Source: Marinitoga piezophila KA3 (GTDB lineage: Bacteria > Thermotogota > Thermotogae > Petrotogales > Petrotogaceae). Taken from it: a stretch of DNA of 64,000 nt. Positions 36,794-43,746 of the stretch are shown one piece after another (within the stretch, counting starts at the first letter, position 1; each line of letters begins with the position of its first letter). The notes under the pieces were generated by a model. It did not search any database, was not told the origin of the DNA, and saw nothing but the letters and a program-made list of their open reading frames with translations. Made by a program: the position numbers and the translations under genes. Location: contig NC_016751.1 in the NCBI RefSeq assembly GCF_000255135.1, positions 62,001-126,000 of the forward strand, in the 5' to 3' direction.

Positions 36794-36804
36794 TATATTA
36801 TAAA

Positions 36805-37121
36805 GTGGGACGATCGGTCGCGTGGCAGCATACTCGCATGCCATGAGGAAAGTCCGGACTCTGAGGGCGGGATGCCGGTTAACTGCCGGGAGGAGTGATC
36901 CTCGGAAAGGGCCATAGAAACGAAAACCGCCGAATATGGCAAGGGTGGAAAGGTGAGGTAAGAGCTCACCGGCATCAGGGTAACCTGATGGCCTGGTAAC
37001 CCCCATCCTGAGCAAGGTCAAATAGGAAGGTTAAGCTTGCCCGGCTTGCCTTTTATGGCGCCTTCCAGGTAGACCGCTTAGATAAATGACCGACAAAACA
37101 GAATCCGGCTTACCGTCCCAC
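36805..37121 (+). ncRNA. rnpB: RNase P RNA, bacterial type A
   Basis: The P1 helix pairs GTGGGACG at the start with CGTCCCAC at the end (about 36805-37121). The universally conserved CR-I GAGGAAAGTCCGGACTC and the 3' CR-V ACAGAATCCGGCTTA are present, with AGGGTGGAAAGGTGAGGTAAGAGCTCACCGG in between (the P11-P12/J11-12 region; here split by description). GC content is far above the neighbours, as expected of a structured RNA in an AT-rich genome. It cuts the 5' leaders from pre-tRNA. The end stem followed by CTTTTTTTG may also terminate transcription. Confidence 0.97.
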
Positions 37122-37249
37122 TTTTTTTGTTAGCTAATCAAACTGTAAAAATTTTGTAATTTTTAAGTAAAATAAACGGTATAGAATATATTTGTAATTA
37201 TTTTAAATTTGTTTTTATTTGAAAATTTAACTATAAGGGGGATGTAATT

Positions 37250-37759
37250 ATGGTAAAAAAAGAAATGACAAGAAAATTTTTAGAAGATGCTTTTTGTGGT
37301 GAATCAAAAGCTCATATGAAGTATACAATTTATGCTGAAGATGCTGAAGCTCAGGGCAAAAAAAATCTTGCAAGATTATGGAGAGCAATTGCATATGCAG
37401 AGTTTGTACATGCTCGAAATCATTTTAAAGCATTGGGCTATTTAGGAAGCGTAGGAGATAATTTAGAAGATTCAGCGGCTGGAGAACACTTTGAAATTGA
37501 AGAAATGTATCCAGTATATAAAAATGCTTCAGAATTCCAGGAAGAAAAAGAAGCTGTAAGAAGTGCTCATTATGCATTAGAAGCTGAAAAAATACATGAA
37601 GAAATGTATAAAGAAGCAAAAAAGCATCTTGAAACCAATGAAGATTTAGAAGATAAAAAGGTTTATGTATGTAAGATTTGTGGATATACAACATTTGATG
37701 AAATACCAGAAAAATGTCCAGTTTGTGGTGCAACCTCATCACAATTTGAAGAGTTTTAA
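37250..37759 (+). CDS. rbr: Rubrerythrin
   Basis: 169 aa. Four-helix ferritin-like domain with the diiron Glu/His ligands (FCGESKAHMKY, YAEFVHARNH, SAHYALEAEKIHEEMY) and a C-terminal rubredoxin domain with two CxxC pairs (CKICGY and CPVCGA). NADH-linked peroxide reductase of anaerobes. ATG follows AGGGGGA. Immediately upstream of superoxide reductase, so together they turn superoxide into peroxide and then water. Confidence 0.96.
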   Translation: MVKKEMTRKFLEDAFCGESKAHMKYTIYAEDAEAQGKKNLARLWRAIAYAEFVHARNHFKALGYLGSVGDNLEDSAAGEHFEIEEMYPVYKNASEFQEEKEAVRSAHYALEAEKIHEEMYKEAKKHLETNEDLEDKKVYVCKICGYTTFDEIPEKCPVCGATSSQFEEF

Positions 37760-37771
37760 GGAGGGGAAAAA

Positions 37772-38128
37772 ATGAAATTAGGAGATGTAATTAAATCAGC
37801 AGATTTCAAAAATGAAAAGCATGTACCAGTTATAGATGCACCTGAAAAGGTAAAGGCAGGAGAGACATTTAAAGTTGAGGTACAGGTTGGAAAAGATATA
37901 GCTCATCCAAATACAGTGGAACATCATATTGCGTGGATAGATTTATATGTTCATTATGAGGATAATCCAAATACCATTCATCTTGGAAGATTTGAATTTG
38001 GTGCAGGAGTAACTGAACCACATGTATTAACACATATAAAATTAGATAAAAAAGGAACTTTAATAGCACATTCATATTGTAACCTCCATGGTTTATGGGA
38101 ATCAGAAAAGGTTATAGAAGTAGAATAA
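37772..38128 (+). CDS. sor: Superoxide reductase (neelaredoxin type)
   Basis: 118 aa, the 1Fe class without the N-terminal desulforedoxin domain. Fe ligands are seen as HVP, HHIAWIDLY and the C-terminal CNLHGLWES (Cys and His ligands); EKHVP has the Glu/Lys lid. It reduces superoxide to peroxide without releasing O2. ATG follows GGAGGGG. Followed by a strong terminator. Confidence 0.95.
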   Translation: MKLGDVIKSADFKNEKHVPVIDAPEKVKAGETFKVEVQVGKDIAHPNTVEHHIAWIDLYVHYEDNPNTIHLGRFEFGAGVTEPHVLTHIKLDKKGTLIAHSYCNLHGLWESEKVIEVE

Positions 38129-38182: not shown

Positions 38183-38191
38183 TGTTATAAT
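38183..38191 (+). promoter_or_regulatory. Extended -10 promoter for the hydrogenase maturation operon
   Basis: TGTTATAAT just after the sor terminator. About 130 bases of leader separate it from the first gene. Confidence 0.72.
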
Positions 38192-38220
38192 TTTCTCGAA
38201 ATATAAAAGTGAAATTTTTC

Positions 38221-38257
38221 TCCTGAGATGAAGGGAGTATTCCTGACATCAAGGGAG
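38221..38257 (+). repeat. Two 17-nt near-identical repeats in the hyd operon leader
   Basis: TCCTGAGATGAAGGGAG (38221-38237) and TCCTGACATCAAGGGAG (38241-38257): 15 of 17 identical, starting 20 bases apart. Both differences are G to C and turn GATG (38227-38230) into CATC (38247-38250), so the segments are complementary. Each unit can form a small hairpin (UCC/GGA) whose loops would kiss, or the two together form one larger hairpin. As DNA they could instead be a paired operator. Confidence 0.7.
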
Positions 38258-38289
38258 GGGAAATAAGGGATACAATATTCCCCTTCCTT
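38251..38289 (+). promoter_or_regulatory. Candidate antiterminator helix in the hyd leader
   Basis: AAGGGAGGGGAA (38251-38262) pairs with TTCCCCTTCCTT (38278-38289) over 12 bases with one G-U. It uses the 5' arm of the downstream terminator and the second 17-nt repeat, so it competes with both. Confidence 0.68.
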
Positions 38290-38326
38290 GGTGTATAGAA
38301 AATACCAAAGGAAGGGGTGTTTTTTT
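38280..38326 (+). terminator. Leader terminator that also holds the ribosome binding site
   Basis: CCCCTTCCTT-GGT (38280-38292) pairs with ACC-A-AAGGAAGGGG (38304-38317), followed by TGTTTTTTT and then ATG. The 3' arm AAGGAAGGGG is the only Shine-Dalgarno candidate for the first gene, so this helix would block both transcription and translation. Confidence 0.78.
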
Positions 38327-38575
38327 ATGGAAAAGAAGATAAGCACATTGTCCATAATAATTTATAACCGTGACTTAGCTTATCAAAAAGTAAGTGATTT
38401 ATTACACAATTATGGTGAAAAAATTCTTTTGAGAGTGGGTTATCCAATGAAGGAAAAAGGAATAGCGATAATATTTCTTGTGGTGGAAATGACAACAGAT
38501 GAGCTTGGTGCATTATCTGGAAAATTAGGGCAAATTGATTCTGTAAAGGTTAAAAGTACAACTTTAAAAATTTAA
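38327..38575 (+). CDS. TM1266-like [FeFe]-hydrogenase system protein
   Basis: 82 aa, small ACT-like fold (KISTLSIIIYNRDLAYQKVSDLL, KVKSTTLKI). It matches the TM1266/TIGR03959 family, called the iron-only hydrogenase system regulator because it sits with hydEFG; biochemical function is not established. The frame extends upstream to 38288, but that extension would run through the terminator hairpin; ATG 38327 is used. First gene of hyd-hydG-hydE-hydF-aspA, so it is the gene most directly affected by the leader. Confidence 0.85.
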   Translation: MEKKISTLSIIIYNRDLAYQKVSDLLHNYGEKILLRVGYPMKEKGIAIIFLVVEMTTDELGALSGKLGQIDSVKVKSTTLKI

Positions 38576-38595
38576 ATTATCTGGAGGTGTTTATA

Positions 38596-40011
38596 ATGTT
38601 ATATATAAAAGATAGAGACAATTTAAAATCCTTTATTCCAGAAGAAAAAATCTTTGAATATTTAGAAACTACAAAAAATCCTGACAAATTTAAAGTTCGT
38701 GAAATAATTCAAAAATCACTTAATAAAAATCGATTAGATCCGGAGGAAATGGCAACATTATTAAATGTTGAAGATGAAGAGTTGCTTGAAGAAATATTTG
38801 AAGGTGCAAGAGAATTAAAAAGAAGAATATATGGAAATAGAATAGTATTATTTGCACCTTTGTATATTGGAAATGAGTGTATAAACAATTGTCAGTATTG
38901 TGGATTTAGAGTAACTAATAAAAATATTGTAAGACGTTCTTTAAGTATTGAAGAAGTAAAAAAAGAAGTAGAAGCTCTTGAAGATAAAGGACATAAACGA
39001 TTAATAGTAGTTTTTGGTGAACATCCGAAGTATAATGCAAAATTTATGACAGAAACTATTAGAACAATATATAATACAAAAAAAGGAAAAGGTGAAATAA
39101 GAAGAGTAAACGTAAATGCAGCTCCACAGACTGTTGAAGATTATAAATTATTTAAAGAGGTTGGAATTGGAACTTTTCAGATATTTCAGGAAACCTATCA
39201 TAGAGAAACATATAAAAAATATCATATAAGTGGTCCAAAATCCAATTATTTATGGCGATTATATGGTCTTGACAGAGCATTTCAAGCAGGATTAGATGAT
39301 GTTGGAATTGGTGCATTATTTGGATTATATGATTGGAAATTTGAAGCAATGGGATTATTATATCATACTATACATTTTGAAGAAAGATTTAATGTTGGGC
39401 CTCATACAATATCATTTCCTCGAATAGAACCAGCACTTGATACACCAATTGCAGAAAGACCGCCATATGCACTGGATGATAAAAATTTTAAAAAGCTGGT
39501 AGCTATTTTAAGATTAGCAGTACCATATACAGGATTAATACTAACAGCAAGAGAACCTGTGGAAATAAGAAATGAAGTATTAAAGTTTGGAGTTTCCCAA
39601 ATAGATGGTGGTTCAAGTATAGGCGTAGGAAGTTATTCTGAAACCGATGAAGAAAAGATAAAGAAAAGTCAATTCCTGCTTGGAGATAATAGAACATTAG
39701 ATCAAATTATTGAAGAACTTTGTGAAGAAGGTTACTTGCCTTCATTCTGTACAGGATGCTATAGATTGGGAAGAACAGGAGAACATTTTATGGAATTTGC
39801 TATACCGGGATTTGTAAAGAGATTTTGTACTCCTAATGCTGTTTTGACATTTCTTGAATATTTAGAAGACTATGCACCAGAATCAACAAAGAAAATTGGT
39901 GCAAAAAGAATAGAAGAAGAAATTAAAAATATGCAAGATTCCCCGTTAAAAAAAGAATTACTTCAAAAAATAGAAAAAATAAAAGCTGGAGAAAGAGATT
40001 TATATTTCTAA
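38596..40011 (+). CDS. hydG: [FeFe]-hydrogenase maturase HydG
   Basis: 471 aa radical SAM tyrosine lyase. SAM cluster Cys C95, C99, C102 (CINNCQYC) and the C-terminal auxiliary cluster C385-x2-C388-x22-C411 (CTGC...C) are exactly in the HydG pattern, which separates it from ThiH. It cleaves tyrosine to p-cresol and produces CO and CN- on an Fe-Cys carrier for the H-cluster. A GTG lies in frame at 38587 but inside GGAGGTG; ATG 38596 is chosen. Start is 20 bases after the TM1266-like gene. Confidence 0.96.
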   Translation: MLYIKDRDNLKSFIPEEKIFEYLETTKNPDKFKVREIIQKSLNKNRLDPEEMATLLNVEDEELLEEIFEGARELKRRIYGNRIVLFAPLYIGNECINNCQYCGFRVTNKNIVRRSLSIEEVKKEVEALEDKGHKRLIVVFGEHPKYNAKFMTETIRTIYNTKKGKGEIRRVNVNAAPQTVEDYKLFKEVGIGTFQIFQETYHRETYKKYHISGPKSNYLWRLYGLDRAFQAGLDDVGIGALFGLYDWKFEAMGLLYHTIHFEERFNVGPHTISFPRIEPALDTPIAERPPYALDDKNFKKLVAILRLAVPYTGLILTAREPVEIRNEVLKFGVSQIDGGSSIGVGSYSETDEEKIKKSQFLLGDNRTLDQIIEELCEEGYLPSFCTGCYRLGRTGEHFMEFAIPGFVKRFCTPNAVLTFLEYLEDYAPESTKKIGAKRIEEEIKNMQDSPLKKELLQKIEKIKAGERDLYF

Positions 40012-40014
40012 GGG

Positions 40015-41139
40015 GTGATTTATATTTCAAAACGGTTTGAAAGATTAATTGAGAAATTAAAAAAAATTCAAAATGATGTTTCTTCAGAAGTAAGTGAAAT
40101 AATAAACTATTTTTTGAAATACTTCACATTGGATTATGAAAAAATATTATGGATTTTAAGGTTAGAAAACGAAAATAAAAAAGAAGAAATATATAAAGTA
40201 GCAGATATAGTAACAAGAACATTGACTACAGACTTTATTACATTAAAAGGAATAATTGAATTTACCAATTATTGTAATAAAAGTTGTAATTATTGTGGAA
40301 TTAGAGTACAAAATAATTGTATAAAAAGATATAGAATACCAGAAGAAGAAATATTAAAAATAGCAAAAAACGGAGTAGATATGGGTTTAACAACCATAAT
40401 TTTACAGGGAGGAGAAGATGAGTATTTTTCTGATGAAACACTGGAAAGAATAATATATAAAATTCATCATGAATATAAAACATCTGTTTCCCTTTCAATT
40501 GGTGAAAGAAGCAAGGAAGCATATAAAAGATTTAAAGAAGCTGGTGCTTCAAAGGTTTTACTAAAACATGAAACAATAAACAAAAAAATATTTAATGAGA
40601 TACATCCAGATAAAGATTATGAATATAGAATAGAATTGTTAGATTATCTTGTATACCTGGGATATATTACAGGTTCAGGTAATATAATTGGTCTTCCAGG
40701 GCAAACAGAAAAAGACATAGCTGATGACATCATATTTATGAGAGATCATAGAATAAAAATGATTGGCATGGGACCATTTATATCAACGCATAATACGCCA
40801 TTAGAAGGATATCCAGATGGTTCTGCTGATTTAACGTTAAATGCATATGCAGCAACAAGATTAACAATTCCATATGCATTAATGCCTGCAACAACAGCTT
40901 TGGGAACTTTAAAAAGAGATTATCAATTTAAGGCTTTGAGAAGTGGTTGTAATGTAATAATGGTAAACATTACTCCTGATAAATATAGGAAAAATTACAA
41001 TATATATGATGAAAAAATAAAAGTTGAGTTTTATGAAACTGCGGAAAGAATTCTTGAAGAAGGTTTAAAATTAAGTCCGTATACATATAGAAGGATTTTG
41101 GAGGCGAAAAGAAATGGCTACTCCTATGAAAGGATATAG
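40015..41139 (+). CDS. hydE: [FeFe]-hydrogenase maturase HydE
   Basis: 374 aa radical SAM enzyme of the BioB/HydE group; SAM-cluster Cys C87, C91, C94 (CNKSCNYC), then [12 protein letters not shown] and [14 protein letters not shown]. It processes the HydG product on the way to the binuclear iron subcluster. The start is unclear: GTG 40015 lies in the AGGGGTGA ribosome site, and the next good candidate is a rare ATT at 40024 (MSKRFER...). The end overlaps hydF by 26 bases. Confidence 0.93.
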
Positions 41140-42355
41140 AAAATATATAGCAATTGCTGGTAGAAGAAATGCTGGTAAATCTACGCTTATTAATGCACTT
41201 TTTGATCAAGAAATTGCTATTACGAGCGATATTCCCGGTACCACTACTGATCCTGTATTCAAAACAATGGAATTGCAGCCAATAGGTCCTGTTACTATTA
41301 TTGATACACCTGGAATAGATGATGAAGGTAAAATAGGAGAATTTAGGGTAAAAAAAGCGTATAAAGCATTATATAAAGCGGACATTGGATTAATAGTAAC
41401 AAATGATAAAGTTAGCAAATATGAAAAAAAACTTATTGAGATATTTAAAGATTTAAAAATTCCATTTATCGTTGTAATAAACAAAAAGGATATAATAAAA
41501 AATATAATAGAAATAGAAAATAGTTATAAACAATACACAAAAAATGTAATTTCAATTTCAGCATTAAAAAAAGAAGGGATTGAAGATTTAAAAGAATTAA
41601 TAGCGAAAGTATTACCGAAAGAAGAGGAAATACCTTTAATAGCAGATTTAATAGAACCAGGACAATTAATAGTTTTAGTTGTTCCCATAGATCTTGGCGC
41701 ACCAAAAGGACGCTTAATAATGCCACAGGTTACAGCCATTAGAGAAATTCTTGATCGTGAAGCAATAGCTATAGTAACAAAAGAAAGAGAATTAAAACAT
41801 ACCTTAGAAAATTTGCAAAGGAAACCTGATCTTGTAGTTACAGATTCTCAAAGTGTAATGAAAGTTGTTTCGGATATAGATAGCGATATTCCTCTTACAA
41901 CATTTTCCATTTTAGAAGCTCGTCATAAAGGAGATCTTGAAATATTATCAAAAAGCGTGGAAGCCATTGAAAAATTAAAAGATGGAGATACTGTGATAAT
42001 AATGGAAGGTTGTTCTCATAGACCACTTACAGAGGATATAGGAAGAGTGAAAATTCCACGTTGGCTTACAAATCATCTTGGTATAAATATAAATTTTGAA
42101 TTTATTGCTGGAACAGAATTTCCTGAATATGAAAAAGTTAAAAATGCAAAGCTTATTATTCATTGTGGAGGTTGTACATTAACGAGAAAAGCAATGTTAA
42201 GACGTATAAATATTGCCACTATGTATAATATACCAATAGTAAATTATGGTGTATTAATTTCATATTTACATGGAGCAATAGATAGAGCGTTGGAAATATT
42301 CCCCGAAATATCAAGAAATAAACATAAAGGATATGAATCATTGTTATTGGATTAA
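41114..42355 (+). CDS. hydF: [FeFe]-hydrogenase maturation GTPase HydF
   Basis: 413 aa. GTPase domain: G1 [10 protein letters not shown]2-region [10 protein letters not shown]3 [10 protein letters not shown]4 NKKD. The C-terminal part carries the cluster-binding ligands His in [11 protein letters not shown] and Cys in [10 protein letters not shown]. HydF is the scaffold on which the 2Fe subcluster is assembled and delivered to HydA. ATG follows TTGGAGGCG within the hydE end. hydA itself is not in the window. Confidence 0.95.
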
Positions 42356-42369
42356 TATGAGGTGGTCAA

Positions 42370-43746
42370 ATGCGTGTTGAAAGAGATTTTATTGGCGAGT
42401 TGGAAATACCTGATAATGTTTATTATGGTATACACACAGCAAGAGCATTAAAAAATTTTCCGATTACAGGTGAAAAATACAATGAGAATTTTATCTGGGC
42501 TTTTTTCATGATAAAAAAAGCCGCTGCAATTTTAAATTATGAACTTGGATATTTAGAAAAAGATATTGCAAAGGCAATTGTAAAAGCCTGCGATGAATGG
42601 AAAAACCTTAAAAATTATATAGTTGTTGAACCTCTATCCGGAGGAGCTGGAACATCTATTAATATGAATTTTAATGAAGTAATTGCTAATCGAGCAACAG
42701 AGATATTAAATGGAGAAAAGGGAGAATATATAGTAAATCCATTGAATCATGTAAATCTACATCAATCAACCAATGATGTGTTTCCAACAGCAGGAAAAAT
42801 AGCTATAATTAAAGAATTGAGAGAAGTTGTAAGTAATGTAATAAAATTACAGGATATAATTCAAAATAAAGAAAAAGAGTTTATGAAAATAAAAAAAATA
42901 GGGAGAACTCAATTAATGGATGCTGTACCAATAATGCTTGGACAGGAATTTGGTGCATGGGCTGATGCATTGAGTAGAGACAGGTGGCGATTGTACAAAG
43001 TTGAAGAGAGAATAAGAAGTGTCAACATTGGAGGAACCGCAATAGGAACAGGAATAGCGGCACCAAAAGAGTATGTTTTAAAAATAGTAAATGTAGTAAG
43101 AGAAATAACAAAAATAGGAATTGCAAAAGCGGAAAACCTTATTGACGCCACTCAAAATTGGGATGTATTTTCGGAAATTAGTGGATTATTAAAATCATTA
43201 GCTGTAAATTTAATAAAAATATCAAATGATATAAGATTATTGGGATCAGGAAGATCAGGGTATAACGAATTAATTTTACCCAAAATTCAAGCTGGAAGCT
43301 CAATAATGCCTGGTAAAGTTAATCCAGTAATTCCAGAATATGTAATTCAATTATCACTAAGCGTTATCTCGTTTGACAACCTCATTACAACAGCAACTTA
43401 TAATGGTAATCTTGAATTAAACCACCTTGCTCCTTTAATAATTCATTATACATTGAAGTCAATGGAATATCTTAATAATTCTCTTACAGCTTTGAAAGGA
43501 TATATAGAACTAATAGAAGCCAATGAAAAGCAATGTCAAAAAAATTTGATAAATTCTTATACCTTTATTACTCCATTAATAGAATTATTTGGATATGAAA
43601 TAGTATCAGAAGCACTTGAAAAAAACGATTATGAAGTTGAAAACGTCATTAAATACCTCTCTGAAAAATACAACAAAAATATTAAAGAACTAAAAAAAAT
43701 GATAAATCCAGAAAAAATGACAGGGCTTGGATACAACCTAAAATGA
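42370..43746 (+). CDS. aspA: Aspartate ammonia-lyase
   Basis: 458 aa of the aspartase/fumarase superfamily; the substrate loop signature GSSIMPGKVNPVIPE and the His-containing LHQSTNDVFPT are present. It makes fumarate and ammonia from aspartate. It follows hydF by 14 bases in the maturation operon; aspA with hydEFG is recurrent in hydrogenase-bearing bacteria, and I infer that it may supply ammonia for the bridgehead amine of the H-cluster. Fumarase is a less likely alternative. Confidence 0.9.
   Translation: MRVERDFIGELEIPDNVYYGIHTARALKNFPITGEKYNENFIWAFFMIKKAAAILNYELGYLEKDIAKAIVKACDEWKNLKNYIVVEPLSGGAGTSINMNFNEVIANRATEILNGEKGEYIVNPLNHVNLHQSTNDVFPTAGKIAIIKELREVVSNVIKLQDIIQNKEKEFMKIKKIGRTQLMDAVPIMLGQEFGAWADALSRDRWRLYKVEERIRSVNIGGTAIGTGIAAPKEYVLKIVNVVREITKIGIAKAENLIDATQNWDVFSEISGLLKSLAVNLIKISNDIRLLGSGRSGYNELILPKIQAGSSIMPGKVNPVIPEYVIQLSLSVISFDNLITTATYNGNLELNHLAPLIIHYTLKSMEYLNNSLTALKGYIELIEANEKQCQKNLINSYTFITPLIELFGYEIVSEALEKNDYEVENVIKYLSEKYNKNIKELKKMINPEKMTGLGYNLK

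Follow-up and report, generated by a model that had tools for sequence, protein, structure and literature searches.

In the pyr attenuators, PyrR, the product of the first gene, binds a leader hairpin acting as anti-antiterminator and favours the terminator; three helices compete, and the same element is found before several operons. Guanidine-II (mini-ykkC) is a small, twofold-repeated leader RNA in which each repeat forms its own hairpin with a conserved ACGR loop, and k-turn/L7Ae-type and box C/D sites present tandem sheared G.A pairs beside a CUGA-like sequence. The control of [FeFe]-hydrogenase maturation is poorly understood. The structure of TM1266 was solved in 2006, and the sole label of the protein is "putative regulator"; the annotation of the family reads putative regulator of iron-only hydrogenase system.

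The window analysed here, a stretch of 64,000 nucleotides from Marinitoga piezophila KA3, contains an operon headed by a TM1266-like gene, whose leader belongs to a new and widespread class of cis-regulatory RNAs. This was computed from a hairpin, named P1, with its covariation, spread and target genes, from the overlap of antiterminator and terminator, from versions that hide the Shine-Dalgarno sequence and from the co-occurrence with TM1266. The binder, the direction and the signal we infer from these data: with a probability of roughly 0.6, the RNA represents a new attenuator-type class, in which TM1266 binds P1 to turn expression OFF and thus exerts negative feedback on H-cluster assembly.

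All the features described below are on the + strand of the window. An extended -10 promoter element, TGTTATAAT (TGnTATAAT, 38183..38191), was read by eye, with the hexamer at 38186-38191; it has no good -35, and a consensus scan requiring a -35 does not list it. P1 occupies 38215..38262 and was recognized from its fold, from compensatory changes, from RNAalifold and from a match of 63.5 bits to the R1 covariance model; its pairs are 38215-38224/38253-38262, 38227-38230/38247-38250 and 38233-38236/38241-38244, closed by a tetraloop at 38237-38240, with an outer GA/AA and an inner AA/GA internal loop on either side of 38227-38230/38247-38250. A previous sequence-only reading of this stretch had pointed to two 17-nt repeats; these are present at 38221-38237 and 38241-38257, are 88% identical and constitute the two strands of P1. 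They contain two half-sites, CTGA-GATG-AAGG (38223..38234) and CTGA-CATC-AAGG (38243..38254). The same reading had proposed two mutually exclusive helices, and both exist, sharing 38280-38294; the recognition element of the switch, namely the hairpin formed by the repeats, had escaped it.

The first of these helices is the antiterminator, visible both as an inverted repeat and in the fold, whose 5' strand (38246..38262) consists of bases that otherwise make up the P1 3' strand and whose 3' strand (38278..38294) overlaps the 5' arm of the terminator; it is 17 nt long and 88% complementary, and the 38251-38262/38278-38289 helix originally reported represents its inner 12 pairs. The second is an intrinsic terminator (38280..38326, from its fold), with arms at 38280-38294 and 38302-38317 followed by a T tract; its core, 38280-38289/38308-38317, is perfect, and next come TGTTTTTTT and the ATG at 38327-38329. 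As had been suggested, this helix buries the sole Shine-Dalgarno-like sequence of the leader, AAGGAAGGGG (38308..38317), within its 3' arm. The leader is structured beyond chance: the whole of it (38200-38328) folds at -47 kcal/mol (z = -4.9), P1 at -21.8 kcal/mol (z = -3.9), the antiterminator at -28.8 kcal/mol for 38245-38298 (z = -5.7) and the terminator at -23 kcal/mol (z = -5.5). The minimum free energy fold combines P1 and the terminator, which are compatible, while the antiterminator excludes both; in a transcript ending ahead of the terminator 3' arm, folding favours the antiterminator. An antiterminator opposed to an intrinsic terminator, with a third helix blocking the antiterminator, is what characterizes three-helix transcription attenuators, and the arrangement is as expected for a kinetic attenuator.

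That the leader belongs to a [FeFe]-hydrogenase maturation operon was confirmed by the genes downstream. The TM1266-like gene (38327..38575; TIGR03959, PF21699, AlphaFold model) is followed by hydG (38587-40011), hydE (40015-41139), hydF (41114-42355) and an aspartate ammonia-lyase-like gene (42370-43746), each with an NCBIfam match over cut-off; these last four, spanning 38587..43746, would be the genes controlled by P1 in the window. One report links ammonia-lyases to the making of the H-cluster bridging ligand (PMC11736057). Elsewhere in the genome (G000:C2:882955-883884), and also in several relatives, there is a second HydG-like radical SAM gene, which scores 201.6 bits to TIGR03955, under the cut-off, and is perhaps ThiH.

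In the family of the host, 12 TM1266 genes score over cut-off, and the leader is present before every one of them. A covariance search at E<=1e-4, counted by hand, gave P1 in 63 of 103 Thermotogota genomes; it is found also in Clostridia, Riflebacteria and Atribacteria. The R1 model, built on Thermotogota only, barely detected the sites of Clostridia, owing to their different central 4 bp, and a pattern without a fixed centre was able to detect them. The cross-phylum set comprised the best 80 TM1266 loci from GTDB, adding Clostridia, Atribacteria, Riflebacteria and others. Single half-sites in the 300 nt upstream of TM1266 occurred 66 times in sense and once in antisense orientation, and paired half-sites, with complementarity not required, 28 times in sense and never in antisense; in 20 of these 28 the best-scoring centre was fully complementary. 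The lone antisense match is not a false positive: it comes from Peptoclostridium, where it forms the leader of a divergently oriented hydE. With a relaxed score, P1 precedes 37 of the 80 TM1266 genes, compared with 0 of 240 shuffles; about half of the 80 loci are without P1, often because TM1266 is internal to an operon. Weak covariance matches within coding regions (guaA, a topoisomerase-like gene and others) were set aside as chance.

P1 lies almost always directly before H-cluster genes, that is TM1266, hydG, hydE, hydF, the aspA-like gene and sometimes hydrogenase subunits. In most Thermotogota genomes it precedes TM1266, and it is also found before separate hydF-aspA operons (L104, L106, L109, L111, L116-L119, L123), before hydG operons (L105, L107, L108, L110, L112-L114), before hydE (L121) and before a hydrogenase-like gene of 588 aa that precedes TM1266 (L120). 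In Thermoanaerobacter it is located at the hydG Shine-Dalgarno site; Peptoclostridium has it ahead of hydG and of hydE, and Pseudobacteroides ahead of hydE. A draw of 245 Clostridia genomes yielded 29 inspected matches, 22 of which precede H-cluster or hydrogenase genes; the remaining seven comprise five chance matches in or at coding sequence, one before an NMT1-like ABC transporter gene and one before an ECF transporter component. The latter P1-like element (L241, G237:C28:25999-26036) stands between a TM1266 gene and the substrate-binding component of the ECF transporter. The NMT1-like substrate-binding gene is preceded by a P1-like element twice, in Clostridia (L255, G312:C1:2550769-2550806) and in Thermotogota (L115:930-972, G037:C78), and the proteins encoded there are homologues of each other (26% over 319 aa, E 2e-26); this transporter may supply something for H-cluster assembly. 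The presence of several P1-led operons in one genome implies a diffusible signal. RNA-seq of T. neapolitana under CO2 gave increases of 6.0-, 6.4- and 7.5-fold for TM1266, hydG and hydE and of 1.28-fold for hydF (PMC7039931); the hyd operon is thus strongly regulated in this organism, by a mechanism that such data do not single out.

Two expression platforms are associated with P1. A terminator follows it in 46 of 47 leaders examined, and in 45 the terminator 5' arm overlaps a segment complementary to the P1 3' strand; in 39 of the 47 this complementarity exceeds that of 95 or more of 100 shuffles, the antiterminator pairing being weak in several Clostridia leaders. In the other type (L023, L029, L032, L106, L109, L111, L217/L218), P1 adjoins or includes the Shine-Dalgarno sequence, immediately ahead of the start codon and with no intervening terminator. 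Formation of P1 corresponds to OFF in both platforms, so negative control is the simplest reading. GTGA...TCAC inverted repeats, seen by eye between the -10 and P1 (e.g., L094, L112, L117), resemble Rex operators, which suggests that these promoters are also under redox control at the level of DNA; Rex controls hydG at the DNA level in Caldicellulosiruptor (PMC6391272), and control by P1 would add an RNA level to it, a point of relevance for biohydrogen engineering.

The mechanism that we propose starts with P1, which would fold first as transcription proceeds. Unless P1 is held, the newly made 38278-38294 would capture its 3' strand, giving the antiterminator; the terminator would not form and the operon would be transcribed. 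If a bound factor holds P1, 38280-38294 would be left free to enter the terminator, so that transcription would stop and the Shine-Dalgarno sequence would be hidden. The factor is most likely TM1266, the product of the first gene of the operon, which could sit as a dimer or tetramer on the pseudo-twofold P1 and contact its two tandem G.A-type loops. In this way H-cluster assembly would come under negative feedback, adjusted by a signal that TM1266 senses; natural candidates for this signal are a metal and an intermediate of the assembly.

The TM1266 protein of the window is a member of the family, with 88.8 bits to TIGR03959 (cut-off 60.8) and 96.4 bits to PF21699 (cut-off 27); it also matches NF052672 (CPF_0552 family) weakly. 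It has 82 aa and a single beta-alpha-beta-beta-alpha-beta domain, and its AlphaFold model matches 2NZC. The fold gives a TM-score of about 0.8 with NikR C-terminal domains, and related TM1266 sequences pass the NikR_C Pfam cut-off; a ribbon-helix-helix or other DNA-binding domain, as found in the NikR repressor, is absent from TM1266. R36 and K76, invariant in the family, are candidate RNA contacts. Many Thermotogota have a second, distant TM1266-like paralogue (20-37 bits to TIGR03959, including L013-L018), and in the six L013-L018 regions P1 was not seen upstream of it.

Among the Thermotogota, P1 is found in 63 of 67 genomes with TM1266 and in 0 of 36 others, in a count that ignores kinship and holds few independent losses. 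Five Petrotogaceae genomes of one genus (G012-G016), which we take to be Petrotoga, have hydG and lack both TM1266 and P1, and both are present in a sixth genome of that genus (G017). In the Clostridia draw, TM1266 occurs in 25 of the 27 genomes with a credible P1 versus 127 of 218 others, kinship being again ignored. The two exceptions (G322, G261), in which P1 precedes hydG or a hydrogenase operon and TM1266 was undetected, are genomes that may be incomplete. They would agree with P1 being an aptamer for a small molecule or metal ion, such as iron, SAM, a precursor of the H-cluster or some other metabolite, TM1266 being merely a gene of the pathway; riboswitches, too, place a single RNA class ahead of several operons belonging to the same pathway and act through transcriptional as well as translational platforms. 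Nevertheless, we regard an aptamer as unlikely, since P1 is a plain hairpin, with neither junction nor pseudoknot and with variable helices and apical loop, has no Rfam match, and in Petrotoga follows TM1266 and not hydG. The sequence-only reading had left the choice between a riboswitch and an RNA-protein switch: co-occurrence and symmetry favour the option in which a protein reads the RNA, and the direct sensing of SAM, iron, tyrosine or H2 by the RNA is the less probable one.

The reader might be a different RNA-binding protein, with TM1266 just co-regulated or modulating that protein. Binding of TM1266 to RNA is not reported in any source found, the open-licence literature searched gave no RNA target for it, and about half of the TM1266 genes have no P1 directly upstream; still, P1 stands most often immediately before TM1266, as in autoregulation, and the two are missing together in Petrotoga, making such a protein quite improbable.

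P1 is the most conserved part of the leader. The lack of covariation and of leader conservation that would have refuted the sequence-only reading was not seen, as covariation proved to be strong and the leader to be conserved across phyla: in a 27-sequence Thermotogota alignment, 97.7% of the cells of P1 are paired and six of the 13 pairs have compensatory double changes, partner-slide controls on the 27 sequences fall far below this covariation, and RNAalifold, with no structure supplied, recovers the same 13 pairs. The broad alignment A5 was chosen partly by pairing, and its covariation score is not independent evidence. The core consists of CU-RA-N4-RA-GG, present twice (CUGA-N4-RAGG / CUGA-N4'-RAGG), so that the half-sites are direct repeats on the outside and complements in the centre, forming a pseudo-twofold RNA duplex; its two 2x2 tandem G.A-type internal loops, probably of sheared geometry, are spaced by exactly 4 bp. 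These loops are GA/GA (tandem G.A) in many Thermotogota and GA/AA in Marinitoga, and the U.G and G.U wobbles adjoining them are nearly invariant; except for the loops and their flanking pairs, the helices and the apical loop vary freely. Beyond Thermotogota, the central 4 bp are swapped as a unit (UUGC/GCAA, GCUU/GAGC, UAAU/AUUA, CCUG/CAGG). At one locus (L143), two tandem P1-like elements are found about 134-176 nt upstream of a single TM1266 gene.

An attenuator without any ligand, for example a sensor of temperature or of transcription speed, would suit the competing helices of similar energy and the mostly thermophilic Thermotogota hosts; it is very improbable, as purine loops and half-sites that stay near-invariant across phyla, including mesophilic Clostridia, despite changing helices, suggest that a partner recognizes them. 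That the site is really a DNA operator, bound by a dimeric protein and transcribed only incidentally, is hardly credible: this would fit the two 88% identical direct repeats and the relationship of TM1266 with the NikR metal-binding domain, but in each sequence covariation keeps the central N4 segments complementary to each other, the site is specific to one strand, it is situated downstream of the -10 and it is linked to terminators or Shine-Dalgarno sequences, and TM1266 has no ribbon-helix-helix domain.

If TM1266 does bind P1, an ACT/NikR-type sensor domain would be acting through RNA. The chances appear evenly balanced that TM1266 founds a new class of RNA-binding regulators, in which a free-standing NikR-C/ACT-type sensor of the H-cluster assembly state clamps P1 and turns maturation genes and some hydrogenase genes OFF across phyla, via terminators or by hiding the Shine-Dalgarno sequence; an NMT1-like ABC transporter would now and then be a further target. 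For hydrogenase maturation, P1 offers a defined RNA target, together with a mechanism that can be tested and is conserved from Thermotoga to Clostridia; its covariance model marks H-cluster genes genome-wide.

As already suspected from the sequence, the leader has no match in Rfam 15 at gathering scores. The families of Rfam 15, which include SAM, preQ1, TPP, fluoride, T-box, GEMM, L10 leader and PyrR, gave only RNase P RNA and a tRNA in the window and only tRNAs in 19 relatives. The RNase P RNA, of bacterial class A (36802-37128, 239 bits), lies just upstream of a rubrerythrin-like (37250-37759) and a desulfoferrodoxin-domain gene (37772-38128). The best matches of the leader at E<=10, mir-2985 (a microRNA) and TtnuHACA12 (a snoRNA), are far under gathering and are due to chance. 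The leader is not described in the open-licence literature searched, and its listing under another name in a 2017 paper on 224 candidate structured RNAs is conceivable. The family is well supported as an RNA, and its novelty rests on Rfam 15 and on the searchable open-licence papers.

Compared with the known systems, the leader resembles the PyrR attenuators (RF00515) in its three competing helices and in the same element serving several operons, the autogenous reader being here a proposal. It differs from them in scoring 20.5 bits to RF00515 against a gathering score of 54, in the different fold of TM1266 and in the symmetric double purine-loop hairpin, which is absent from the PyrR site. TM1266 shares its fold with the ACT-like metal-binding C-terminal domain of NikR, which is a tetramer; unlike NikR, it has no ribbon-helix-helix DNA-binding domain, and its proposed target is RNA. 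P1 recalls the k-turn/L7Ae-type and box C/D sites in having tandem G.A next to a CUGA-like sequence; it is not a k-turn, since in the alignment its loops are symmetric 2x2 and the 3-nt bulge is absent. Like guanidine-II (mini-ykkC), finally, it belongs to a small, two-fold-repeated bacterial leader RNA, but its repeats pair together, its apical loop varies and it has no Rfam match.
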